DNA from: Ectocarpus siliculosus
Taxonomy: Eukaryota; Sar; Phaeophyceae; Ectocarpales; Ectocarpaceae
Direction: 5' to 3'
Length of the DNA stretch: 31,123 nucleotides
Assembly: GCA_000310025.1 (NCBI GenBank)
Contig: FN648885.1
Location: forward strand, 41,516 to 72,638
Shown: positions 1,706 to 29,708 of the stretch, one piece after another
How the letters are laid out: each line of letters begins with the position of its first letter
Position numbering within the stretch: the stretch's first letter is position 1
The notes under the pieces: model-generated
What the model was told of the DNA's origin: nothing
Databases searched by the model: none
The model's input: the letters and a program-made list of their open reading frames with translations, nothing else
Program-made: the position numbers and the translations under genes

Positions 1706-1892
1706 TGTTTGGGTGCGGTAGCCCGTCAGAGGCCGAAAGAGAAAGAAGGTTGACTCAAGACCTTGGTTGATTAGAGAGTGAGAGACATGCGGTAGGCAAC
1801 ACCATCGCCATGCAGCATGCCCATCAACACATTTCATCCCCGTACCCCCCGGAGGCCCCGTAGACAGTATACTCTGCCGAGCACCCCAAACA
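1706..1892 (-). repeat. 3' LTR of the gag-only element
   Basis: This 187-bp LTR begins TGTTTGGGTGCGG and ends GCACCCCAAACA on the plus strand. It matches 6309-6495 at all but two positions (A/G near 1804 and C/G near 1840). It is the downstream LTR in the minus-strand orientation of gag. Confidence 0.88.
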
Positions 1893-1906
1893 GTCCCCCT
1901 GCTCGG
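1893..1906 (-). other. Polypurine tract next to the 3' LTR
   Basis: On the minus strand the bases immediately before the LTR read CCGAGCAGGGGGAC, a purine-rich tract in the position expected for plus-strand priming. Similar GCAGGGGGG words recur inside the element near 2455 and 2563. This fixes the element orientation as minus. Confidence 0.6.
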
Positions 1907-3520
1907 TACGAGATACGATCTACGAAATCCCCGTCACGACTATCATTGCCAGGTAAAACGGCGATAAATCAAACTACGCATCCAAACGGAAATCATCCAC
2001 CATTCATTCCAATTCAAACAATTTCCCAATAAAACAATGTTCTACGAAACCTGTCGATCTCCCAATAAAACATGCTCTACGAAATCTTTCAAATCTTCTG
2101 ATGATATCAAACTACTACCTCCTTAAAGGTCTGTCAATTAACAATCAACCCCTTTGAGAAAAATGCTTTACCAAATTCTCAAGAAGTCAAAACGCAAACA
2201 ATAACCCTTGGAAAAATCCCCAGCAAAGATACACATTACATCAGAATCACGTCAGAACGGGGACGGGTAACTCCGGGAAAACGTGTCCAACGTCCTAACT
2301 TACTCAGAACAAATTCCTCAGATAAACATTCATGTTTCAACTCATTTTCCAGCTCAAATAACCTTCGGAAGCACAAAGGCTTCAACCATGACTTACGAGA
2401 ACATGCCAAATCCTTCCTCCAATACCCAATACCTTCACAAATATACCAGTCCAACAGCCCCCCTGCTGTAACATCCATCCCAAACGCGAAGAAACCAAAC
2501 AAACAATTCCAAAACAAACATGAAGAAACTAACAAATCCAAAACAGACAATCAGCAATCCAGCAGCCCCCCTGCTGGGACATTTCATATAAACGCAACGA
2601 AAATCCCATTCAATATTCAATTCCATGTCACCTCCGCAGGTAAAACGCGGAAGACGATCCAAACATGAACTACCCAAGTACCATTAGCCAACATCAATTC
2701 CATATAAAATCCCCAGGGAAAACACGGAAAATCTCAACATGAACTACCAAACCCGATGTCAGAAACACTGCTTGTTGTGCTGCGGCGGACAGCATGGTAT
2801 CACATTCCCCCCCCCATGATTTCCGACAGCAGTGCAACAATCAGGCGTGATTCCGCAAAATCCAGCATGCCAATTCTGCATCCAACTTCATCAACTCCAA
2901 ACCGAAACAAGAAAACAAAACATATATTATCAAAGAAAAAGCGTCACACGTCCAGCACATACCAGTCTGCCGTACAGGCCTACTTGGAAAGGAAAATTGG
3001 TACTCCGCAAGGATTGACTCGTCGGGTACGGCACATCGGAGGGACAGAGAAACGGTGCGTGCCCCCCAACGTCTTTACCCAGCACGTCGCACGCCAAGCC
3101 AACGCCTACGAATATCCAGTACCACCAGAAAAACATAGCGGTAACTACCATAGAGACTGTTATCCCAACAAAGAGGGAAAACCAAAGTGGAGCAAACCGT
3201 ACGCAGAATAATACTACCAACGCCATATTGTGAGATATTTTCTTGGCAAACAACAGCCCCCCGGCCGCAACATTCCATTTGCCTCCCAGAAAAACAACAG
3301 TAATCTACCATGGAAATTTCCTGCCATTTGGCCGTGGAAATTAGTATCGCTGCAAGGTAAAACGCGGGTGGGCATCTCGACAGAACAAAACAAAAACAAA
3401 TCCAAACCTCCAAATGTGCCAACGATAGGAAAAATGATTTGCAGACGGTGAAAAATGCAGCATTGTATCTGACGATCAAAACACAAGAACAACATCCTGC
3501 ACAAAACAAATTTCAGAAAA
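1907..3520 (-). other. A/C-rich, G-poor non-coding 3' region of the LTR element
   Basis: The plus strand is strongly A- and C-rich and poor in G, so the element's sense strand is T/G-rich. No long motif-bearing frame is present. Degenerate short repeats occur: GGTAAAACGCGG-like words near 1951, 2270, 2640, 2711 and 3356; CAGCCCCCCTGCTG near 2455 and 2565; AACATGAACTACC near 2667 and 2738; and a duplicated CCAATAAAACA..TCTACGAAA near 2025 and 2062. No pol remnant was recognised. Confidence 0.6.
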
Positions 3521-3638
3521 ATGACAAGAATACGCAAACAAACATCACGTGCCTTGGCGAGTTTAAGACCCCAGCAGAAGTCGCGCTGCTTGCCGTCATT
3601 GTTGGACTCGCCCGGTCCTCCGCACTCCCTTCCCCGCT

Positions 3639-3941
3639 TCATGATCCTCCTGTCGTTGTTCCGGTCGCGAACACGGGCTCCCCGGCCGTTGCCCCCCGCG
3701 ACATCTTTCCACGGTCGAACGGGGTGTCCATCCCCATCACCGGCCCCACTCTCCCAGCCTTCAGCCGGCACAGCTCCCCCGGGTCGAAGGGGCGCAGCAG
3801 TGCCCCAAACCAGGCCACATCCATCCTCTCTGCCTTGTCGTTGCTACTGCTGCCGCTGCTGCTGCTGCTGCTGTTGCTGCTGGAGCCATCGACCAGGTCG
3901 TCCACCCCGGGATAGTTGGCGCCGCGCACCCCCGAACACAC
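3639..3941 (-). pseudogene. Probable frame-shifted C-terminal part of the Gag-like protein
   Basis: Near 3940 the main Gag frame becomes an implausible Arg/Cys/Ala mix. A different minus-strand frame reads GVDDLVDG, a Ser-rich tract, then NDKAERMDVAWFGALLRPFD, which looks more protein-like. A single indel between about 3940 and 3990 would join the two. The Ser/Ala/Gln tract comes from a CTG-type triplet repeat at 3844-3883. The frame stops at 3639. The assignment is an inference from composition only. Confidence 0.4.
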
Positions 3942-4114
3942 GGTGCCGGGATCGAAAGGGTGCGTGGACGGCCCCCTCTCGCCACAGACGCTGTCATCCT
4001 GCAGCCATCAACCTCCCCTGCGCACCAACCGCCATCATCGCTGCCGTCGTCGATGCCGTTGACCACCGCTTCTCCGTTGCTGACCGCCCCCCCAACCGAT
4101 ATGGTGGGGGAAAC

Positions 4115-5155
4115 GTTACCGACGGTTGCCATCGTAACGGCCGGTGCCGTCGCCGCGGTCGCGGGTCGTGCCGTCACCGATGTCGCCACTTCAGCCGCCG
4201 ATGCCGCCACTGTAGCCACCTGCGCGGGCTCTCGAGCCATTCTCCCCGCCGCCGCAGCGGGAGAAACAACACCGTCGGGTGCCGCCGCCGTTGCCGCTGG
4301 AACCGCCGTCGATACCGGCGCTCCAACCACCAACGCGGGCGCTCCGGTTGTTCTCCCCGCCACCGTCGCGGAGATAACAGTGTGGCCGGGCACCGCCGCC
4401 GTCGCCGCTGGAACCGCCGCCGATGCCTCTACTCCAGCTGTCGCCGCGAGCCCTCCGGGCGCTTCCTCCGCCGTCGCTGCGAAGAAAACACTACCGCCGC
4501 CGTAGGTCGCCACCGTCGCCTCTGGAGCTGCCGCCGATGCCGCCGCTCCTGCCACCACTGCAGGGACCCCGGCAGTCCCCCCCGCCGCCGTCGCGGCGAC
4601 AACACTACCGCCGCCGTAGGTCGCCGCCGTCGCCTCGGGAGCTGCCGCCGCTCGTGCTGCCACCGCGGGGACTCGGGTCATCCCCCCTGCCGCCGCCACA
4701 GGGAAAACACTGCCGCCAGAGGTCACCGCCGTTGCCGCTGGAGCTGCTGCCGATGCCGCCGCTCCTGCCGCCACCGCGGGGACTCTGGCCATCCCCCCTG
4801 CCGCCGCCGCGGGGAAAACACTGCCGCCAGAGGTCGCCGCCGTCGCCGCCGGAGCTGCTGCCGATGCCGCTGCTCCTGCCGCCACCGCGGGGACCCCGGC
4901 CGTTCCCCCCGCCGCCGCCGCGGGGAAAACACTGCCGCCGGAGGTCGCCGCCGTCGCCGCCGGAGCTGATGCCGATGCCGCCGCTCCTGCCGCCACCGCG
5001 GGGACCCCGGCCGTTCCCCCCGCCGCCGCCGCGGGGAAAACACTACCGCCGGAGGTCGCCGCCGTCGCCGCTGGAGCTGCTGCCGATGCCGCCACTCTAG
5101 TCGCCAACGCAGGCGCTCCGGCCATTTCCCCCGCCCCAGCAGCGGGGAAAACATC
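4115..5155 (-). repeat. 111-bp coding minisatellite (37-residue Ala-rich repeat)
   Basis: In the Gag frame about nine to ten copies of a 37-residue unit run in tandem, each starting near VFPAAAAGG and ending near ATAATSGGS. At DNA level the word GCCGATGCCGC returns about every 111 bp (near 4749, 4860 and 4971). Later copies diverge, with some shorter or longer by a few residues, but the frame is kept across the array. The GC-rich repeat produces several long but spurious frames on the other strand. Confidence 0.8.
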
Positions 5156-5829
5156 ATCGCAGACACTGCCACCAGCGTGAACTATGTCCACAGAATCATT
5201 CCATCCAAACCATCCGTCATCATCACTGTCCACAGCGCCGCCAGCGTGAACCATGTCGACGAAATCAGAGCGGTACTCGCTCTCTGCCATCACCTCGGCG
5301 CCAATGTGAACCAGGTCGACAAAATCAGAGCGGTACTCGCTTTCTACCACCACCTGCTGCTGTACGACCGAGCTTCCACCGATGTCTATGCAGCTGCCGC
5401 CGCCATTGACGCCCATCCAGCAGCCACCGCGGACGATACGGCCGTCATCCTCGCCGCTGCTGCCATGAAGATGCACGGCGCAGTTCCGCCACATATGGCC
5501 GTACTGACCACAGGCGCCGCACGTACCCTCGAACCTGCGGGGTGCGGCGCATTCTTCGCCGTGGTGGCCGTTCCTGCCGCACCGAGTGCAATGGTATACC
5601 GTACCAGGCGGAGGGGGTGATTCCTGCTGGAAATACACGGCGTTGCTCCCGTAGTCATATATCCCACCAACTCCGGTTGGCGGCAGCTGCTGTTGCTGCC
5701 GCGCCAACTGCTGGTGCTGCCGCGCCTGGTGGCTCTGAGTGAAAACGCAGTGTTGGTTCTGCTGAGGGACAAAACCACCACGAGAACACTGCTGTACCTG
5801 CGATGGCTGCTGCTGCCATTGAGCACTTC

Positions 5830-5868
5830 ATCGCTGCTGCTGCTGTTGTTGTTGTTGTTGCTGCCGCC
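5830..5868. repeat. CTG/TTG triplet tract encoding poly-Gln on the minus strand
   Basis: Runs of CTG and TTG on the plus strand read as CAG/CAA, about ten Gln codons, on the minus strand, directly before the in-frame TGA of the Gag-like gene. Mixed CAG/CAA use is typical of a selected or old poly-Gln tract rather than a fresh pure expansion. Confidence 0.8.
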
Positions 5869-6308
5869 TAAGTCTCTCCTTCTCATACTCGGCAGCCTCC
5901 GCAGCTCTGAGCACCTTCACCAGCCTCTCCACCTCCGACTCGGCAGCTCGTAGCTTCTCTGCTGCGTTGCGCGACCTCTCCTCCATCTTGATGCGCACAA
6001 CTGCTGTAGTCTCCTCCCTTTGGGAATCTCTTCCTATTCCGCCGCTTCTCTCCGCCATAGTCTACACTTGAAAATATCCCGTACCCTGCTGTCCCAGCCC
6101 TGAAGCGCTGTCCCAGCAATACACCCCGTGCTGTCCCGGTCCCCGATGGCCACCGTCCCAGCTATACACTACCCGCTGCCGTGCTGTCCCGTCCCCGTTG
6201 GCCACGTCCCAGCTTAGCTATATATATCGTATTCGCCGCCCCATTGGCCCGGCACATACAGCTCAGACGCCAATACCCACTACCAACACCAGGCCATACA
6301 ATATATTG

Positions 6309-6495
6309 TGTTTGGGTGCGGTAGCCCGTCAGAGGCCGAAAGAGAAAGAAGGTTGACTCAAGACCTTGGTTGATTAGAGAGTGAGAGACATGCGGTAGGC
6401 AACACCGTCGCCATGCAGCATGCCCATCAACACATTTCATCCGCGTACCCCCCGGAGGCCCCGTAGACAGTATACTCTGCCGAGCACCCCAAACA
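6309..6495 (-). repeat. 5' LTR of the gag-only element
   Basis: This 187-bp LTR is nearly identical to 1706-1892 and has the same TGTTTGGG/CCCAAACA ends. It lies upstream of the Gag ATG in the minus-strand direction, leaving a leader of about 250 bp (6059-6308). No strong primer-binding match directly abuts it; a TGG word occurs about 14 bp inside. Confidence 0.88.
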
Positions 6496-6975
6496 CTCCG
6501 AGGGGAAATCGTAATCCAGTCAACTCCAGCGATTCAACTTTCAGATCTCCCCTGGAAGATTGTGAAGTGTTGCCCTCCGAGGAACTGGCTGTTCGACATT
6601 AAGTTTTCCTCTAGGGCAACCCGTTCGTTATGTAATGCTCTGGAGGATGCCGAATCTGCTCCCTCTGAGGAAATCGTGCTTTCAAATCCTCGGAGGACTC
6701 CAATTGCCTACCCTCCGAGGAATACATCAGATATATATATATGTACCCCCCAGAGTAGCGTTTCTTAGGCAATGCTCTGGAGGGTGCTGTTACATCGTAC
6801 CCTCGGCAGGTTTTTTTTTTTGACATCCTCGGAAGGGGCCGATTGTCTCCCCGCCGAGCTTTGTTTTTTATTCTCGGAGTATATCGTCCACAAATCCTCT
6901 AGAGGGTTAAATATCCTCCAGAGGATTTCGAACCCTCAAGAGGAGTATTTTTCCTCAGAGGAATATGGGTGGGTA
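6496..6975. repeat. Right half of the CCTC-NN-GAGG dyad array
   Basis: About eighteen imperfect 10-bp dyads of the form CCTC-NN-GAGG lie here, including CCTCCGAGGA near 6577 and 6712, CCTCGGAGGA near 6690, CCTCTAGAGG near 6895, CCTCCAGAGG near 6912, CCTCAAGAGG near 6932 and CCTCAGAGGA near 6952. Spacing varies from about 17 to 37 bp. The first five bases are the right copy of the CTCCG target duplication. The intervening sequence is not repeated, so this is an array of dyads rather than a simple tandem repeat. Confidence 0.7.
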
Positions 6976-9485
6976 GCCACTTGTCCACCTGTGTAAAATA
7001 ATAGACCTGCATGCTGAACGCATTTCGTGGTAGGATAAATAGCGCATCTACAGAAAAAACTAATGAAGACTGAATTAAAATTTATTAATTTTCAGGGCGC
7101 GTGTACAAAGAACATGTAGGGTAATGTATGTATGTAGGAAGTGATGGGAGAGAGGGTAATAATACGCACGGCGGGCTTCGCAAGGTACTGATCACTGCAT
7201 GCAATTATCCGACCTATGGCAACGTTACAAGAATGTCCTGTAGGAAAATAGACAACGGAAAATAATACGAACGGTCTTCTGCGCCTTTTACCCGCATTAG
7301 TTGCTGCTGCTGTGAACCGGTTGATAGAGTCCACCGCGCGTAGAGAGGAAAAGGGAGAGTCCAGAGATAGATGGAGGCGGGCCACACCGCTCCGGGACAA
7401 GAAGACAACTCTATGTGAAACAAGATCGGAACGGTTTTTCATGTGAAGACTACAACAACAACAACAACAACCGCGCGTTATTAGGCCCAAGGTCAGGGGT
7501 GGGTCAGAGATGTATTGTAGGAGACTGAGCGGAAAACCCGCTTTCTCGATGATGCGCTATAACAAATTCCGTTCCTCAGCAATCAATCAGTTAGAATAGA
7601 AGGCACGCATTGATGACGTCAGCCAGGGGAGGCAAGATCGAACGCCAAGTTTTCTAAGCACGCACGCTGCACACACAAGCCGTCACTCATCACTCCTCCC
7701 ACTATAATACTCGCCACCCTGCAAGCAGCAAGAAGAAGAAAACACACATCGCGAAAACCTACGTCGTCATCTGCAGGTAAGCATCTCATTATTAAGGCGG
7801 ACTTCATGTACCATTAGGTCGTGTGTGCTTCGTACCACAACCAACCGCCGCGCGGTTGTTCACTCCATCACTCTTGTCTTGTCGTTGAGAAACTTATGCC
7901 AGATAAAAACAAGAATCTACGGGAAGAATTTACACAGCAGAGCACAGATTACCGTAAGAAGAGTCGGAGAGATCGCACCGGGTGTGTACGCATGTCATGT
8001 GTTTATATATGCATATGTTTGTCCCATCTATACTGGCGCCGGTTTGCAGGCCTCTCGGCGTATATATCTGACGTATGCATATCAGCCGGGGTCACCGGTG
8101 CGATCGCTTTGTTGAATGTGTGTGTGTCTTGTTCCGTGTTTTTTTTTGTTGCGCCCTGGTACCATCTCTCCGACCGACCGGAACGATCTCTCTCTCTCTC
8201 TCTCTGACCATGATGCGGAAACTCCAATGAATCACCCCATTAATCTTTTTCAAGGCACCCGTCCCGGTTCAAACTCTTCGACCTGTGCGATGCCCAATGA
8301 AACACTCACAGCGCGCCTTACTCGCACTACTATACCGTATACGTACGGCGGTGTAGTTTGCGCGCACCCCGTTTGTTTGCCATCTCCCCGACTGGTGCTA
8401 TCTTCCGCCTATCTATTTATGGGTATTCTGCACCATTTCCACAAGTAGACGATGTGCGGTGTTCCGTACAAGAACTTAGGCTATTTAGCTTTCCATGCAG
8501 TGAGTGGTCATGGGTTTGAATTCGAGTTTGGCTATAATGGCGTCATATATATGCATATGTACCAAAGACAACAAACGGTGTGATTTGCATCTGGGGTACA
8601 GGTACATATATTACTACTGCAGTTTTCTTCTTTGTTCCTGCCGCTCCCGGACGGGAATGAACGATGTTCTCACAGCGCGGGCGTAGCGCGCCCACTGTAT
8701 GCACTGCTGTGAGCCTCAACACAAATACTGTACCCGCACGGACACGTGCACTTCCTTTCATCCCAAGCACATACCGGAGTACGACGTATCTATTACTGTA
8801 GCTCTTGTCCCTTCTTTCGGATCCGACGTTTTTTAGGAACAAAATTACCTCGTGTGTCCATCCGTACCACAGCAAAACGTTCTCGCATGAATGTTCTACT
8901 TTTTATACACACTACTACCGCAACCAAATGACGCTGTGCGATCTGGTTGTACTCCATATTGTATGCATATCGTATAAGGCATGTTGAACCACGTATCGCA
9001 AGTAGTAAAACTGAACACGACTGTATGTTCAGGGCGGGTGTGTAGCTTGCAGATTGATGTGTTGGGCGCACGACAGCGGCCTCAACTTCCCCTGCTTTCG
9101 TTGTGATGGATAGGCACGCACGAAACCATGCATAGCAGTGTAGGGTGGTTTGTCTCGCGTCATGCGGAGAAAGTTAATTGCCTGAGGATGGGTTGGTAGA
9201 ACACGACGTTTTACTTCTATCGGAGGCGGCGATGAGTACGCTTTATTCATAAGTCAGGGTACAGCCGGCAGCCAGTCCGTGAAAAGTCAACAACACTGAA
9301 ATGCGAGGATGGAGTGCTAAATGAAGTTGTTGTTGTTGTTTTTGTCTTCACATTAAAAACCGTTTCGGTCTTCACTCAGCACTTTCTAATGTCTGTATAG
9401 TACTGGTCCAACTGACGCGGACGCCTTCCGTGGTCACAAGCCAACTGCCCCCCACGGGGGGGGTTACACCTTTCTAAAAAAACCA
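6976..9485. other. Gene-less stretch with scattered microsatellites
   Basis: No gene could be supported. Visible are a CAA run near 7451-7471, a CT run near 8188-8204 and a GTT run near 9323-9340. Near 7690-7780 a TATAATAC word is followed about 80 bp later by CTGCAG|GTAAGC, a good splice-donor context, but with no ATG-led frame. Overlapping frames of 60-130 codons lack motifs. Confidence 0.5.
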
Positions 9486-14170: not shown

Positions 14171-16970
14171 CGGTGTGTCATGTCGTGAAATGCTCTACGG
14201 CAACAAACGTTGTGTCTTATCGTTGGAGTTTGCTCGTCCCTCTTCGGGCCCTCTGTAACTGCACAGTTGTTCCTTTCTGTGCCCTCATTCGGTCTCGGAG
14301 CGCTACTTGTAAGCGGTAGTAACTTGACCTGCAAACGAAGGGCAAACCGACCAGCTGATTTCGAAGGATTGGCCGGCCACATGGGGGATGCATTTAAACT
14401 TCCGAGTGAACAAAGCATGTTTTATACGCAGCTGTAAGCCTCGTACTTGTGGCTTGTTGACGCAGCCGTGTCTAACCCCGACCGGAAGCATCAAGGCGCG
14501 CCATTGCTTCCGTTTCCCTGCATCCACAAATTCCGTCGACCGTCTTCTTCTCTTGCACCACTGCGCCGACAACAATACACTGTACGCTCTCGCATCCGTT
14601 GTGCAACAGGCACGCCCTCTCCGACGGCAGTTCCGACATCTGCAACTGCCACAGGTCAGTAGTGCTCCGTTGCCGATTTCATCCAGTATTTTTTTTAGCA
14701 TCAATATCTCATCGATCTCAATAGTACCCACCGATCTGCTGTACCCGACGTGTCAGTCATGGGTCTTCGAAACTGCCAGTGCTTCATGCTACTGCTTCGA
14801 CGTGCATCTACTCATCATAACGGGTGACCCATGGGCGGCTTAGCAAAACTGTCAGTAGTGTCGGAGATTGAGCCCGACGCGCTATCGTTCTGAGCTTTTC
14901 GCCAAGACCCTCCGTTTCCCTGCTACCTGCTACCCTCGAAGCAGGCGCCCTCCCTTATGATTTGCGAACCCCACCCCCTACGACGACGCCGGCGCCTGCA
15001 GCTGAAAGTGACCGGTCGTTGTTTTTGTCCGTACCGCTTAACGCAAATACTGTAGATATACTCACATGTACGGTGTGTTTCGCTCGTTTTTCGTTGTGGC
15101 TTCGGGTATTTCAGACCCTGTGACGTTAGTAACGTGCTTCCTTCTGCAGCTTTGACGCGCACCTGAATTATTTTCAGATCCAGACGCATACGGCGACATG
15201 ATCTTGACTTCTCCCGTGATGTTCCCAGAGTTCCGTGTCAAGACGCCGACTCTGGTGTCATGTCGTGAAGAGCGCGACGTCGGTAAACACCCGTTGTGTT
15301 CCGAGGTAGTGTTAGTCGTCAGAGTTTGCTCGTCCCTCTCCGGACCCTCGGCAACTGCACAGTTGATCTTTTGTGTGCCCTCATTCGGTCTCGGAGCGCT
15401 ACTTGTAAGCGGTAGTAACTTGACCTGCATACTTGAAGGGCAAACCGACCAGCTGATTTCGAAGGATTCGCCGGCCACATGGGGGATGCATTTGAACTTC
15501 CGAGTGAACAAAGCATGTTTTATACGCAGCTGCAAGCCTCGTACTTGTGGCTTATTGACGCAGCCGTGTCTAACCCCGACCGGAAGCATCAAGGCGCGCC
15601 ATTGCTTCCGTTTCCCTGTATCCACGAAATTCCGTCGACCGTCTTCTTCTCTTGCACCACTGCGCCGACAACAATACACTGTACGCTCGCTCGCATCCGT
15701 CGTGCAACAGGTACGGCCCCTTCGGCGGCTGCTCCGACATCTGCAACTGCCACAGGTCAGTAGTGCTCTGTTGCCGATTTCATCCAGTATTGTCTTTAGC
15801 ATCAATATCTCACCGATCTCAACAGTACCCACCGATCTGCTGTACCCGACGTGTCAGTCATGGGTCTTCGAAACTGCCAGTGCTTCATGATACTGCTTCG
15901 ACGTGCATCTACTCATCATAACGGGTGACCCATGGGCGGCATAGCAAAACTATCAGTAGTGTCGGAGATTGAGCCCGACGGGCAACCGATCTGAGCTTTT
16001 CGCCAAGACCCTCCGTTTCCCTGCTACCTGCTACCCTCGAAGCAGGCGCCCTCCCTTATGATTTGCGAACCCCACCCCCTACGACGATGCCGACGCCTGC
16101 AGCTGAAAGTGACCGGTCGTTGTTTTTGTCCTTACCGCTTAAGCAAATATTGTAGATATACTCACATGCGGTGTGTTTCGCTCGTTTTTCGTTGTGGCTT
16201 CGGGTATTTCAGACCCTGTGACGTTAGTAACGTGCTTCCTTCTGCAGCTTTGACGCGCACCTGAATTATTTTCAGATCCAGACGCATACGGCGACATGAT
16301 CTTGACTTCTCCCGTGATGTTCCCAGAGTTCCGTGTCAAGACGCCGACTCTGGTGTCATGTCGTGAAGAGCGCGACGTCGGTAAACACGCGTTGTGTTCC
16401 GAGGTAGTGTTAGTCGTCAGAGTTTGCTCGTCCCTCTCCGGACCCTCGGCAACTGCACAGTTGATCTTTTGTGTGCCCTCATTCGGTCTCGGAGCGCTAC
16501 TTGTAAGCGGTAGTAACTTGACCTGCAAACGAAGGGCAAACCGACCAGCTGATTTCGAAGGATGGGCCAGCCACATGGGGGATGCATTTGAACTTCCGAG
16601 TGAACAAAGCATGTTTTATACGCAGCTGCAAGCCTCGTACTTGTGGCATGTTGACGCAGCCGTGTCTAACCCCGACCGGAAGCATCAAGGCGCGCCATTG
16701 CTTCCGTTTCCCTGCATCCACAAATTCCGTCGACCGTCATCTTCTCTTGCACCACTGCGCCAACAATAATACACTGTGCGCTCGCTCGCATCCGTCGTGC
16801 AACAGGCACGCCCTCTTCTCTGGGTGGCAATTAATTCACCGAACCGGCACGTGAAGGTCAGTGGTGCTCCGTTGCCGATTTCGCCATTATCGGTCTCAAT
16901 CATGGCTCCTCGACACTGCCAGTGCTTCATGCTACTGCTTCGATGTGCATCTAATCATCAGAACAGCATG
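14171..16970 (+). repeat. 1.1-kb tandem repeat, two full copies and one partial copy
   Basis: Copy 1 is about 14171-15250, copy 2 about 15251-16348 and copy 3 about 16349-16970. The word CATTCGGTCTCGGAGCGCTA lies at 14286, 15382 and 16480, giving periods of 1,096 and 1,098 bp. Copies 2 and 3 are closer to each other than to copy 1. Copy 3 has a replaced internal segment near 16815-16905 and stops matching near 16963. Long frames of up to 256 codons occur on both strands but shift between copies, so I call none of them. In copies 1 and 2, near 14828 and 15931, the words CCCATGGGCGG and TTAGCAAAACTGTC match the TIR of the 10962-11381 element. Confidence 0.9.
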
Positions 16971-24139: not shown

Positions 24140-25388
24140 GGGTGCGGGCTCTCCCGCGTAGCGGGGGGGCCTACCTCGGATGGCAGCGCACCTGCGGCTA
24201 AATCGAACGGCAGCACGCCGGTCTACACGAGGTTGGCTCCAGGGCTATCAGCAGGTTCAGGACCTGGGACAGGCAGGACGGGACTTTGTTACCGACGTCT
24301 TGGCATGCAGCTCGTCGAGCACTCAGTTGCGTCTTCGTCTAGAAGGACTTACACGTCAGGCTTCAACTCTTGGTGCACGTTTCGCAGGCTGACGGAGAAG
24401 CCCAAGTTCCTAGGGCAACGTGCCGGGGACCTTCATGTGTGGGAGTTGATAGACTTCGTAGCCTGGTGTTTCGAGTCTGAGGGTAATCTAGCGAGTACAA
24501 TATCCGGAAAACTCACGGCTGTACAACATTTTCATAGGCTGGAAGCTTCTGTCGAGCTAGACTTGTCGTCTCCGATGTTGAAATGTGCGCTAAGGGGGAT
24601 TGCGAGGAACCACGTGGCTGTGGGGACGGTACGCCGTGTGCGCCTGCCTGTGTCTTGGCGTATGCTGCTGGACGGGGAAAGCGCAAGCCAGAACTGGGGG
24701 GGAAGGGGGCAGAGTGATGTGGCTGTGTCTGTGCTTGTCCTATCTCTTTATCACACGGTCTGATGAGGTGTTCGCGAATGATGCGGGCAGGGTGCATGAG
24801 GCACACTGTCTTACGAGGGCGGACGTAGCATTGTTTGCTGGCGAGACGCAATTAGTCTTTAGTCACTATCGTAGAGCAGACCGTGTCGAAATGAGGTTTA
24901 GAGGGCACAAGGCCGATCAAGAGCAGAAAGGAAACATACGGGTTCGTACGCGAGACGAAGTCACCGGACCGCAGTCAGGTGTGAGAGCACGCGGTGGCGC
25001 GGTGGCTCTTGTGGTGGAGCTGTTATCGTGTCATGCGACGTTCCCTGACTCCGCACCGTTGGCTTCGTACCGTAGTGGAAGAGCAGTGAGAGTAGTGAGG
25101 TATACTGCTGCCCTCCGTGCACTCAGAGAAGTGGTAGCGAAGTCGGGGCGTAACCCCCAGGAGTACGCGTTGCACTCGTTGCGAATTGGAGGCGCGACGG
25201 CTCTTGCATCGGGCGGAGACATCGCAGGACGAGTGATTCAGAGAGAAGGGAAGTGGAGGTCGGATGCATACAAGCCGTACGCGCGAAACAATGTAGAGGA
25301 TTCGCGGCGAGTGTCACGGAAAGTTACAGACGGCAGTAGGATCGTATCGAGACAGCCGGGGGAGGGGACCGTCTGGGGGAACGGATAG
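24140..25388 (+). pseudogene. Tyrosine recombinase/integrase with one frameshift
   Basis: Likely catalyses strand exchange for the element. The N-terminal core-binding part reads RRTYTSGFNSWCTFRRLTEK and GNLASTISGKLTAVQHFHRL. In the stretch of seven G then AA then five G (24696-24709) the reading must shift by one to continue into LCLSYLFITRSDEVF, whose Arg (24756-24758) fits the first catalytic Arg. Further on are HSLRIGGAT (H-x-x-R, His 25173-25175, Arg 25182-25184), GKWRSDAYKPYARNN (Trp in the usual His/Trp place and a candidate nucleophile Tyr) and a stop at 25386-25388. The frame is open back to the TAG ending the Gag-like region, with no ATG near the junction, so expression may have needed readthrough or splicing. 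Confident as a tyrosine recombinase; subfamily uncertain. Confidence 0.78.
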
Positions 25389-27156: not shown

Positions 27157-29708
27157 ATGACAAGAGATTCACAGTCTTGGGTCGTAGTAGTGGCGGCGGG
27201 CGTCGTGGCAGCAGGAGAGGCTCATCGTGCCCACTGCCCTCAGGAACGGGAGCCCATCTACGAGCCCAAGCGTCTTCCGTGGGCTCAACACGAGGCGGAC
27301 CTCGATAAACGGCACGGGTGGCGGCGGTCGTACCGCATGGAGAAAGGCAGTTTCCACAAGCTTGTCGAGCTACTCCGCCCTTCGCTGGAAGTCAACGCAG
27401 CAGTTCGGCGGTGAGTGTTGATGTGTAGATGCAGCCGCCCACGGCAGGTATGCGTGATGAGGGTTCTTCTGGGTGTATATGTAGAAAGCAACGGGGAAGA
27501 GCACAAGTCTAAAACATGTGCTGTACATAGACTACTGCTGTAGTCTATGTTCCTGCTGCCTTTTTTTAAAAAGCAACTCGCTCGTCGAACATGCGGCAGC
27601 AGGGTACGTACAGCGCAGCAGCAGTATTGTACGATATACTGTTGCAAGACACATACTTGTACAGCAGCGGTCATTGTATGGGTTAAAGGCGGAGGTACTA
27701 TTCGTGACGCTCACTACTGTGCAGCAGTATTCACAGGGCGTACAGTACACGCCGGCCCCACTAAACGAATACAGCCTCGTCGGGAGCCGATACAAATTGT
27801 CGTATCCCGCAATGACACAACAGCTGTCGACACGTGCTCATCATGTGCAAAATGCGTACGTAGGTGATGAACACAGAGCCGTCTCCGTACCGTAGTACAT
27901 AGGTAGGTGGATTGGGCCGGCAATCTGACGAGTTTGCGGAGAACATGCGCCCCCCGTCGTAGGTTGCTAAACTAGGTGCTGGCGATTGCAAACATGCCCC
28001 CTTTGACACTCGTACTTCTGTCCTGAACGACTCACGCTCATCCTGCAAACGTTATCTGCGCGTCGCTCGGAAACCCCACAGCACTGCGATCGCCAACCAA
28101 CGGCGCCATAGCTGTGGAAGTCCGCGTTGCCGCGGCGTTGAGGATCCTGGCTGGCGGCAGCTACTGGGATGTTGCCCTCATGTTTGGCTTGTCGAGGGCG
28201 GTCACGTTCGACATCTTGTGGCAAGTGATCGATGCCATCAACGAGACGCCTGCGATTGGGGCATTTGACTTCCCCCTGACCGAGGAAGGCCGCATGCGAA
28301 ACGCCAATAGATTCAAGGTGAGACCTAACGGTGGTCAGTACTGCAACTACGGTTATTCTTGGCGGCATTCTTTCGACCAACCGCGGGATATCGTGTATTT
28401 TTTCACGTCTGCTGTTTCCAGCCGTTTTAGCGTAGGGAGGACTATCTATACGCAGCCCTCGTTGATAAGAGAGAAAAAAAAGTGTTGTCGCCGGCGGGTA
28501 CGAGTTCGGGTTGTCATCGTGGTCAGCATTGTTCGAACCGAAAAATATCCCCCGGGTCCCGGGTGGTTCGCCAGCTTTCGGTGTCCTTTACAAATAAATG
28601 TTGTTGTCATCCTTTGTGTATGCTGGCCACGTTGGTTCGGCCCCGCAACAGCAGTGGCCCGGCAACAGCTTTTAGCGATACAAGAGTGTGGAATCAATGC
28701 AGTCACCTCCGTGGCTCTAAAATGCCCTGATACCTTTGTACCGCTGTACGTGACGCATGATTATGATTAGGATTATCAAACGGCCCAACTCTCAGTTTAC
28801 ATGGTATGCCCGCCGTTGCTGGCGATGGCGCCGTCGCCGATGACATCAACCCACACAACGTACAGCTGAACACTGTTACCAATTTTTGTCAATGTATCTC
28901 TCGACTTATTTTATATCCCTTCCCGACACTGCTACTTTCCCGGCCTCGTGTCTGCCGTCTACAAATGCAGGAGAAGAGCACCGATGGCATTTTCTCCTGG
29001 GTCGTCGCCGCCGTGGATGGTCTGTTCATCAAGGCCAAGGCTCCGTATGCGAAAGACACCGCCAACGTCCTCGCGTACTACTCTGGCAGCAAGTCCGCGT
29101 ACGGCATCAACGTACAAGCGATGTGCACCGCCGACTACCGGTTTTGCGCGATGTCGGCGATCTCACCAGGCTCTACGAACGACTGGGTAGCATGGAATCG
29201 ATCTTCCCTCGCCAAGGCCGTCGCCCGCTTGCCCACCGGATTTCACATCATTGGTGACGCCGCCTACCCCATTGGAGAAAAGCTTCTGACTCCGTACCCT
29301 GGGAGGCTGCTGCCGGCGGGGGAGGACTCGTTCAACTTCCACCTGAGCCAGCTTCGTGTCAAGATCGAGCAGAGCTTCGGCATCCTGGTTTCGACTTGGG
29401 GCATTCTGTGGAGACCTCTCCGCGTGCAGTTCGCAGGACGCGCGGATCTCATCACGGCTCTTTTCCATCTGCACAACTTTCTGCAAGACGAGAAGGTATC
29501 GCCGATCCAGCTTGCAGAGGAGGACTCGCGCAGCGGACGCAACCGGCCGGCCCTCTGTGCTACGCAGCGCACCTTGCCGGATGACTGGCAAACGGAGCAG
29601 CCGGCTCCTTCGAGGAGCGGTGAGACCCCGGCCCGAGCGGCTATCCGCACGGCCCTGGAGTTGAAGAAGCAGTGGAGGCCGGACTACAACCGCCAGAGGA
29701 ATTCGTGA
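27157..29708 (+). CDS. PIF/Harbinger-type transposase (DDE_Tnp_4/HARBI1-like), three exons
   Basis: Catalyses cut-and-paste transposition. Exon 1 (27157-27410, perhaps starting at an ATG at 27060 if a frame break near 27200 is allowed) contains YRMEKGSFHKLVELLRPSLE, the usual N-terminal region. Exon 2 (28082-28317) reads VAAALRILAGGSYWDVALMF and ends RFK at a GTGAGA donor. Exon 3 (28971-29708) starts after AATGCAG, joins in phase and carries the catalytic triad: Asp in AAVDGLFIK (29016-29018), Asp in IIGDAAYP (29256-29258) and Glu in VKIEQSFGIL (29367-29369), spaced 80 and 37 residues, then LHNFLQDEKV. The exon 1 to exon 2 junction (27410 GTGAGT to 28081 CCACAG) is one base out of phase, so the copy has an indel or uses another site. 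TIRs and the MYB-like partner were not found. Confidence 0.85.

Follow-up and report, generated by a model that had tools for sequence, protein, structure and literature searches.

Gag-only retrotransposons are usually read as parasites, or as donors that share a full Gag with their helper. An element family in the genome of Ectocarpus siliculosus departs from this picture and raises the question of whether non-autonomous retrotransposons bring along their own packaging genes. We address it through the copy found in a stretch of 31,123 nucleotides (contig FN648885.1, positions 41,516 to 72,638), here called the window; the same genome offers a helper family and a mosaic copy that would record the joint copying of both RNAs. 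Sequence comparisons make it probable that the window element belongs, as one of its young copies, to a non-autonomous Ty1/copia family, and that an autonomous copia partner of about 6.7–7.3 kb in the same genome mobilises this family in trans.

Structure of the window element

Positions 1706–6495 hold, on the minus strand, a complete LTR element without pol (Table 1). The two LTRs share one orientation and differ at two positions. We find the 187-bp LTRs, their TG/CA ends, the CTCCG duplication and the minus-strand polypurine tract as the first-pass annotation of this DNA had described them. Inspected by eye, the primer-binding position in the leader is occupied by the palindrome CAATATATTG and has no TGG; a TGGTGTTGGTAGTGGG lies about 17 bases further in.

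Table 1. Features of the element in the window; positions count from the first nucleotide of the window, and LTRs are named in the sense of gag.
Feature	Position	Strand
Target site duplication CTCCG, left copy	1701–1705	
3' LTR, 187 bp, from TG to CA, with imperfect inverted termini of about 12 bp	1706–1892	-
Polypurine tract GAGCAGGGGGAC, adjoining the 3' LTR	1893–1904	-
3' non-coding region	1893–3640	-
C-terminal module with GERGPSTHPFDPG, GALLRPFDPGELC and GMDTPFDRGK; in the window copy its frame differs from the rest of the ORF	3639–4007	-
111-bp tandem repeats, 8.3 copies, encoding the Ala-rich part	4236–5153	-
Pair of CCHC zinc knuckles with homology to the nucleocapsid part of the partner Gag	5480–5590	-
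688-codon open frame past the in-frame stop: Q-rich stretch, knuckles, Ala-rich repeats	3761–5827	-
ORF start, from the ATG at 6058: coiled-coil-like and poly-Q stretch; in-frame stop codon TGA at 5830–5828 (window copy)	5828–6058	-
Leader; palindrome CAATATATTG as its first 10 bases (6308–6299), the primer-binding position	6059–6308	-
5' LTR, 187 bp	6309–6495	-
Target site duplication CTCCG, right copy	6496–6500	

In the window copy the ORF is broken twice, at codon 77 by the in-frame stop and near position 4,000 by a frame change that shifts the C-terminal module into another frame. The opposite orientation of the element was also considered and is ruled out, because the polypurine tract, the leader and the conserved ORF all agree on the minus strand.

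A young family without pol

A census of LTR/leader junctions in the 189-Mb host genome, allowing at most one mismatch, yielded 71 junctions: 45 of the element type, 24 of the partner type and 2 of neither. A polypurine tract/LTR junction lies downstream of 37 of the 45 element junctions, at a spacing of 4.05–4.55 kb in 30 of these 37; the 22-base junction itself has 172 genome matches at three or fewer mismatches, against 2 for a reversed control. Among the 150 RVT_2 places listed (150 of 519 candidates scored), none falls within 9 kb downstream on the same strand of any of the 45 family junctions. The absence of pol noted for the window copy therefore extends to its relatives, and the full-length relatives that the first-pass annotation proposed to look for exist, likewise without pol.

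Eight further full copies, taken from LTR pairs among 40 scored of 258 LTR candidates, all have identical LTR pairs. The 5-bp target duplications vary between copies and are perfect in 8 of 9 full copies, the window copy included; in the exception, L071, 4 of 5 bases match. Over the 3' non-coding region, the window copy is 91–95% identical to the other 39 family copies listed. An ORF of 744–765 codons is present in 4 of the 9 full copies, and frames of about 600–830 codons are found in many family copies. The family is young, and the window insertion, with two mismatches between its LTRs, is complete and fairly recent, as had been proposed. Independent MITE insertions, raised earlier as a reading that would undo this picture, are excluded because the 187-bp LTR pairs recur, mostly 4.1–4.6 kb apart, each with its own target duplication outside the pair. 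Chance is likewise excluded as the source of the paired repeats, given the recurring pairs and the target duplications that differ between copies.

An autonomous copia partner with shared ends

The search for an autonomous relative with pol was also successful. The partner is a related Ty1/copia element in the same genome; it has integrase and reverse transcriptase as well as Gag. Its Gag comprises capsid and knuckles and lies, together with a protease motif and the integrase, in one frame of about 1,337 codons; reverse transcriptase occupies a following frame of about 473 codons. We read 2.9 kb of one partner copy (C8) as letters, and the partner structure elsewhere rests on coordinates. C8 has an in-frame stop after the knuckles that is specific to this copy; C24 and C74 read on and contain the whole Gag-to-integrase frame (1,336–1,337 codons). 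Downstream of the 24 partner junctions, a polypurine tract junction follows in 19, an RVT_2 place in 12 and the integrase stretch of P0029 in 19. The partner Gag matches Pfam PF14223 at 1.1e-9 and, in Ectocarpus sp. CCAP 1310/34, finds 80% identity over 52% of the query. For the integrase domain of P0029 the score is 28.1 bits, under the Pfam cut-off of 32.6 bits; a search with rve listed no partner locus (150 of 658 candidates scored), while the search with P0029 did list partner loci. We note that the genome contains many other RVT_1 and RVT_2 elements, so helpers other than this partner are possible.

Element and partner have in common an R-U5 that is identical at 72 of 72 positions, the polypurine tract, and a leader start that matches at 48 of 49 positions over about the first 50 bases, with one 3-base gap (element copy L074 against partner C8). 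Over the last 322 bp of the 3' region, nine copies show 91–95% identity to the partner, the window copy standing at 91%. In U3, by comparison, identity is 86/113 (76%, one partner copy read). The first-pass annotation had held that pol between the same LTRs would reduce the element to a simple deletion. R-U5, the primer-binding side, the 3' end and the polypurine tract are indeed common to pol-bearing copies, but the U3 of the one partner copy read and the zinc knuckles (dS of about 1, see below) are too far apart for a recent deletion of the present partner.

One further copy, C259, is an integrated mosaic, its 5' half being of the partner type and its 3' half of the element type. The U3 of its 5' LTR is element-like (112/115), its leader is partner-like (238/239), and it is flanked by TGGAC on both sides, i.e., by matching target duplications. 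Such a mosaic is what a template switch between co-packaged RNAs would leave. The ends and the part of Gag that the element has in common with a pol-bearing copia element fit Ty1/copia; the element itself has no copia-type order of pol, and its placement rests on the partner.

Taken together, these comparisons favour the earlier proposal that the element depends on the enzymes of another, and suggest a route. Element RNA would be packaged into partner particles via the shared R-U5 and leader, copied there by the partner reverse transcriptase and integrated by the partner integrase. Template switching within the particles would keep the ends alike, with the coding part evolving separately.

A Gag derivative without capsid

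The element protein consists of a coiled-coil-like start, a Q-rich stretch, two zinc knuckles, Ala-rich repeats and a conserved C-terminal module. Its homology to the partner Gag is confined to the knuckle end; the Gag capsid domain is absent, and a Pfam search of the ORF returns no match at all. The description of the only gene as a zinc-knuckle Gag-like protein is thus correct as to a single ORF with zinc knuckles, but the capsid domain is missing and the ORF of the window copy is broken. A protein of this kind cannot be expected to build particles alone and, since the capsid part is missing, the element should not be donating them. Its likeliest role, which we put forward tentatively, may be that of an RNA-binding adaptor: it would connect the element RNA with the Gag or the particles of the partner and thereby promote its own packaging.

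Over 66 codons, the knuckles differ from those of the partner at a dS of 0.93–1.11 and a dN of 0.075–0.086 (8 readable of 9 copies); this low ratio could have built up in an autonomous lineage before the element took the knuckles over. Indels are multiples of three in 18 of 30 cases in the ORF against 8 of 30 in the 3' region. Across codons 1–300 of 31 copies, pN/pS is 0.66, compared with 0.665, 0.78 and 0.889 in three frame controls, and a comparison of singleton with shared changes shows no difference (p 0.80, codons 1–197). Because pN/pS is no better than one control and singletons resemble shared changes, we claim no selection signal for present copies. Nonsense changes make up 3 of 262 singletons where a model expects about 13, a count taken from best-matching copies over a stretch that in part aligns poorly. 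Antisense frames reach 647 codons; they lie across the GC-rich ORF and appear to be its shadow, the antisense control for pN/pS standing at 0.889.

The C-terminal module in other proteins

The module region (residues 560–753) is matched by 218 proteins, and the module is present in 141 of 231 proteins mapped. By phmmer against the partner capsid and knuckles, the capsid region occurs in 110 of these 141 and the knuckles in 3. Where the tail is joined to a part of Gag among the 231 proteins, this part is capsid or knuckles and never both; other genomes carry the complementary half, a capsid without knuckles, linked to this module. The tail has three PFD[PR]G motifs. The motif columns of the module are 90–100% conserved in a 75-row alignment that was not picked by motif and in which 45 rows form one group at 75% identity. 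In a second alignment (85 rows, the element included), rows were picked by parts of the same motifs and the conservation is partly built in.

The module has no Pfam match, pol domains are found in 0 of 75 proteins scanned, and Pfam recognises Retrotran_gag_2 in only 1 of the 75. Of 35 module matches in the host genome (69 of 577 candidates scored), 34 belong to the element family; on the partner side, no match to the module turns up across 676 residues read from Gag and beyond. An AlphaFold model of P0137, a relative with capsid plus tail, has a mean pLDDT of 35.9, with the N-terminal helix alone confident.

These observations hint at a long-lived class of non-autonomous Copia elements in Ectocarpus and, judging by proteins, in other genomes. 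Members would combine half a Gag, Ala-rich repeats and a PFD[PR]G tail that is absent from every pol-bearing protein examined. The tail might be the parasite's own adaptor, docking onto the helper Gag or particle and outlasting any one helper partnership, while template switching refreshes the ends from the current helper. We consider this possible, though somewhat short of an even chance.

Alternative explanations

The ends common to both elements, from R-U5 and leader start to 3' region and polypurine tract, would also be expected if the element had arisen from the present copia partner simply by deletion of capsid and pol; its ORF would then be a relic carried along passively, and the ends alone would count. 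The weak selection signal among copies and the broken ORF of the window copy agree with this. We nevertheless consider it very unlikely: the knuckles stand at a dS of about 1 and a dN of about 0.08 against an identity of 91–95% over 322 bp of the 3' end, U3 reaches just 76%, frames of about 600–830 codons persist in many copies, and the module, unmatched in 676 partner residues, is conserved in proteins elsewhere. The Ala-rich part and the module could instead have been captured from a separate cellular gene family, in which case the conserved tail would be uninformative on retrotransposition. The missing Pfam match of the module and the single Retrotran_gag_2 among the 75 proteins scanned point that way; the phmmer matches to capsid (110/141) or knuckles (3/141) in module proteins and the confinement of 34 of 35 host matches to the element family speak against it and make it rather improbable.

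Gene conversion between dispersed copies can homogenise repeats, and the similar ends and C259 might have arisen in this way between DNA copies instead of by reverse transcription of co-packaged RNAs. However, C259, with its element U3, partner leader, element 3' half and matching target duplications, needs two DNA exchanges where one template switch is enough; gene conversion, named as an alternative in PMC9744471, is thus distinctly unlikely here. Finally, the protein could be an interference factor and not a helper. As a partial Gag, it would bind the Gag or the RNA of the partner and hold the partner in check, in the way that p22, a C-terminal fragment of Gag, limits yeast Ty1 (PMC4599808). 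Its RNA-binding end and the Ty1 precedent fit such a role, as does the occurrence in other genomes of this module with the complementary half of Gag, a capsid that lacks knuckles. But p22, as described there, acts on Gag and retains a portion of the copia capsid domain, which the element protein lacks; moreover, a parasite would gain nothing from stopping its helper unless the effect were selective. We regard interference as unlikely, and retain mobilisation in trans, possibly with an adaptor protein, as the preferred reading.

Relation to known systems

PMC12477816 describes Copia families of Ectocarpus, Copia-N1_Ec32 and Copia-11_Ec32, that have a single ORF and at least partial homology to gag; it cites its reference 27 for them (by context, the 2010 genome paper). 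The occurrence is therefore not new, contrary to the first-pass annotation, which would have counted it as a separate one if the host were an alga or other stramenopile. Compared by description only, these families are probably of the same kind as the window family and possibly the same family; as far as the description in PMC12477816 goes, it names no autonomous partner, missing capsid or C-terminal module. What appears to be a new variant is the combination of a missing capsid with a conserved module.

With the TR-GAG elements of plants the family has LTRs, a single Gag-derived ORF and the lack of pol in common (PMC6022998). TR-GAGs are defined there by a Gag domain, or Gag plus protease, and the layout, proposed earlier for the window element, does not hold in the strict sense, the capsid part of Gag being missing and no Gag domain detectable. 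A domain search alone would lead to LARD (domain-less, 2 kb or more; PMC6022998). That class has a non-coding interior, in contrast to the 744–765-codon ORF in 4 of 9 full copies and its motifs conserved in proteins elsewhere.

Further parallels are the wheat pairs RLG_Quinta/RLG_Cereba (PMC11302176) and RLG_Sabrina/WHAM with RLG_Wilma (PMC9744471), in which a non-autonomous gag-bearing element and an autonomous partner likewise share LTR, primer-binding and polypurine tract features. Quinta carries an extra domain of unknown function (DUF1), comparable to the module, and Quinta A and B have divergent gag between similar flanks, ascribed to template switching (PMC11302176). The wheat pairs are Gypsy, whereas the window family is Copia. 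Quinta Gag is thought to serve particle formation (PMC11302176), which the capsid-less protein should not; semi-autonomy of the Quinta/Sabrina type, by supply of a full Gag, does not apply.

Ty1 p22/p18 are similar in being a partial Gag, p18 interfering with nucleic-acid chaperone function, but they come from an internal transcript of the autonomous element, include part of the capsid domain and restrict their parent (PMC4599808). Similarly, non-autonomous grass pararetroviruses have non-coding control regions kept alike between partners by recombination, although these partners are pararetroviruses and not LTR elements (PMC5491270).

The element and its family

The element is a real, complete, non-autonomous retrotransposon of Copia type. 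Its two LTRs differ at 2 sites, the target duplication CTCCG lies on either side, and, read in gag sense, GAGCAGGGGGAC is found directly 5' of the 3' LTR. A search of the host genome (189.5 Mb, 492 contigs) with the LTR gave 258 first-look candidates; all 40 that were scored match at ≥98% over the full length, many of them paired at a spacing of 4.1–4.6 kb. Eight more full copies (L069–L076) measure 4.42–4.81 kb and have identical LTR pairs. With the window copy counted, the 5-bp duplications are perfect in eight of nine copies (4 of 5 bases in the remaining one), and pairwise identity among the nine is 95.3–99.7%. The family is young and multi-copy.

An ORF of 744–765 codons, starting at element position 439, is present in four of the nine copies and is shorter or interrupted in the others; in the window copy, a stop at codon 77 and a shift of frame near position 4,000 disrupt it. 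The encoded protein comprises a coiled-coil-like start, poly-Q, a Q-rich stretch, two CCHC zinc knuckles, a linker, Ala-rich repeats (unit of 37 residues, 111 bp), poly-Ser and a C-terminal tail. Pfam returned only a non-significant zinc knuckle (E 0.88) for the window frame and no match for the protein of copy L074.

A conserved tail

Searching with residues 560–753, a query that takes in some Ala- and Ser-rich sequence, retrieved 218 proteins at E 0.001, and none of the 120 listed has a precomputed Pfam domain. Tail parts occur in 141 of the 231 proteins gathered: 110 with the capsid region, 3 with knuckles and 28 with neither, while capsid region and knuckles are together in none of the 141. 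An alignment of 75 tail bearers reveals columns of ICGERGASTHPFDPG and GALLRPFDPGK.C conserved at ≥90%, nearly all of which the element retains. Clustered at 75% identity, these 75 proteins fall into seven groups, with 45 proteins in the largest; one of the 75 carries the Pfam copia Gag domain, and none an integrase or RT. In P0018 and P0159, database proteins likely from brown algae, knuckles, Ala-rich part and tail follow the element's order. Among the 69 scored of 577 candidates in the host genome, the element family accounts by coordinates for 34 of 35 tail matches, and one, on C387, is unassigned; the capsid half of the query used in this genome search matches the Gag of the partner, a related Ty1/copia element, and other Gag-like frames.

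The tail is better evidence on selection of the protein than copy-to-copy comparison and indels. Over codons 1–300 of 31 copies, pN/pS is 0.66 (knuckles 0.46) against 0.78, 0.665 and 0.889 in the frame controls, and singleton and shared changes do not differ; in this stretch, stops occur in 3 and out-of-frame lengths in 5 of the 31. Indels in multiples of three make up 18/30 in the ORF versus 8/30 in the 3' region, the ORF figure being helped by repeat units of three. Our best guess, a tentative one, is that the protein may act as an RNA-to-particle adaptor. On C225, the Ala-rich part and tail lie inside or adjoining a frame that stays open for 4,119 codons and may be an expanded repeat array.

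A partner with shared ends

A 20-base pattern spanning the LTR end and leader start (≤3 mismatches) has 121 genome matches versus 3 for its reversed control, and the junction of polypurine tract (PPT) and LTR has 172 versus 2. We classed the 71 listed LTR–leader junctions with ≤1 mismatch (60 exact) by downstream content. Forty-five lead into the ORF of the element family, 37 of them with a PPT junction downstream, and none of the 150 listed RVT_2 places lies downstream of any of the 45. Another 24, including the mosaic copy C259, lead into other Gag or RT and form the partner group; two have neither kind downstream. PPT junctions follow 19 of the 24 and RVT_2 places 12, and 14 of the 19 PPT junctions lie at 6.29–6.89 kb, which puts partner elements at ~6.7–7.3 kb. 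P0029, an integrase-bearing Ectocarpus relative, maps downstream of 19/24 partner junctions (11.6 kb off in C5) and 0/47 others. Each of the 60 exact junctions, whichever of the two families it belongs to, has a perfect palindrome at the primer-binding position; the search pattern itself contained this palindrome.

In the partner Gag, as read from the C8 copy (L077), the copia capsid domain PF14223 (E 1.1e-9) is followed by knuckles and these by a protease-like DSGA motif. Gag through integrase is a single frame of 1,336–1,337 codons at C24 and C74, and RT occupies a separate frame (473 codons at 7 of 12 loci, 247–489 at the others); C74 illustrates this split layout. The partner is very probably the element's helper.

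Comparing partner C8 with element L074, R-U5 is identical (72/72), U3 matches at 86/113 (76%), and the leader at 48/49 over its first ~50 bases, with a 3-base gap, and 141/180 over the remainder. The last part of the 3' region is 91–95% identical over 322 bp, depending on the copy (91% in the window copy), and the knuckle stretch 77–78% over ~240 bp. Protein similarity extends from the Q-rich stretch to the stretch ahead of the protease motif (BLASTP 3e-50, 43% over 258 positions); homology of the N-terminal coiled-coil-like parts is not demonstrable, and the element lacks any counterpart of the roughly 240 capsid residues of the partner Gag. Across 66 knuckle codons, dS is 0.93–1.11 and dN 0.075–0.086 (eight of nine copies, L072 left out). 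Taken together, these figures indicate a much earlier split from the partner for the coding part than for the ends, and recombination keeping the ends alike is the simplest account.

C259 is a recombinant flanked on both sides by TGGAC. Its U3 is element-type (112/115; 78% to the partner) and its leader partner-type (238/239; 84% to the element). As far as a CAG tract, the interior is a Gag of partner type that includes the capsid and has an interrupted frame; beyond it come the AGC tract and 3' region of the element. This comparison covers all but ~190 bases between the Gag part and the 3' region, and the 3' LTR by two junction patterns only. Reverse transcription takes the U3 of a 5' LTR from the 3' end of its RNA template, so a single template switch accounts for the two joins; DNA exchange would need two events.

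According to PMC12477816, which refers back to an earlier report and to the paper on plant TR-GAG elements, several Ectocarpus Copia families have just one ORF, with homology to gag over at least part of it; the layout is thus not new for a brown alga. The closest analogue by mechanism is wheat Quinta/Cereba, for which PMC11302176 describes diagnostic ends in common, a Gag accompanied by a domain of unknown function, and template switching. Among the titles and abstract openings of the open-licence papers listed by our searches, we found none on a capsid-less, tail-bearing Gag element.

Other features

Coordinates of the element, related loci and other window features
Feature	Position	Strand	Remarks
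Element, whole extent	window 1706-6495	-	
Element LTRs	window 1706-1892, 6309-6495		187 bp each
Stop at codon 77	window 5830-5828		
Palindrome CAATATATTG	window 6299-6308		
47-bp inverted ends GATCGGAACGG...CAACAACAA	window 7422-9372		1.86 kb apart, 89% complementary; likely a DNA transposon
Head-to-tail repeats, ~1.1 kb each	window ~14214-16818		94–96% identical
Two overlapping frames, HSLRIGGATAL...	window 24140-25388	+	tyrosine recombinase-like by eye; no Pfam match at E 0.01
Open frame with DDE_Tnp_4	window 28767-29705	+	E 6e-25; a Harbinger/PIF-like transposase
Partner, split layout	C74:99964-106410		
Mosaic copy	C259:13569-17351		
Ala-rich part and tail	C225:11198-12271		
L003	C122:1834-5020		

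L002, on C212, contains a shorter stretch with ends like those of the inverted-end unit, located upstream of the point from which L002 matches the 3' region of the element. L003 has an LTR of the same 187-bp type and 12 bp of polypurine tract; its interior matches neither the element nor the partner stretches read and holds a frame rich in Gly and Arg that runs for 422 codons in antisense to the LTR. It is perhaps a third element kind on the same ends.
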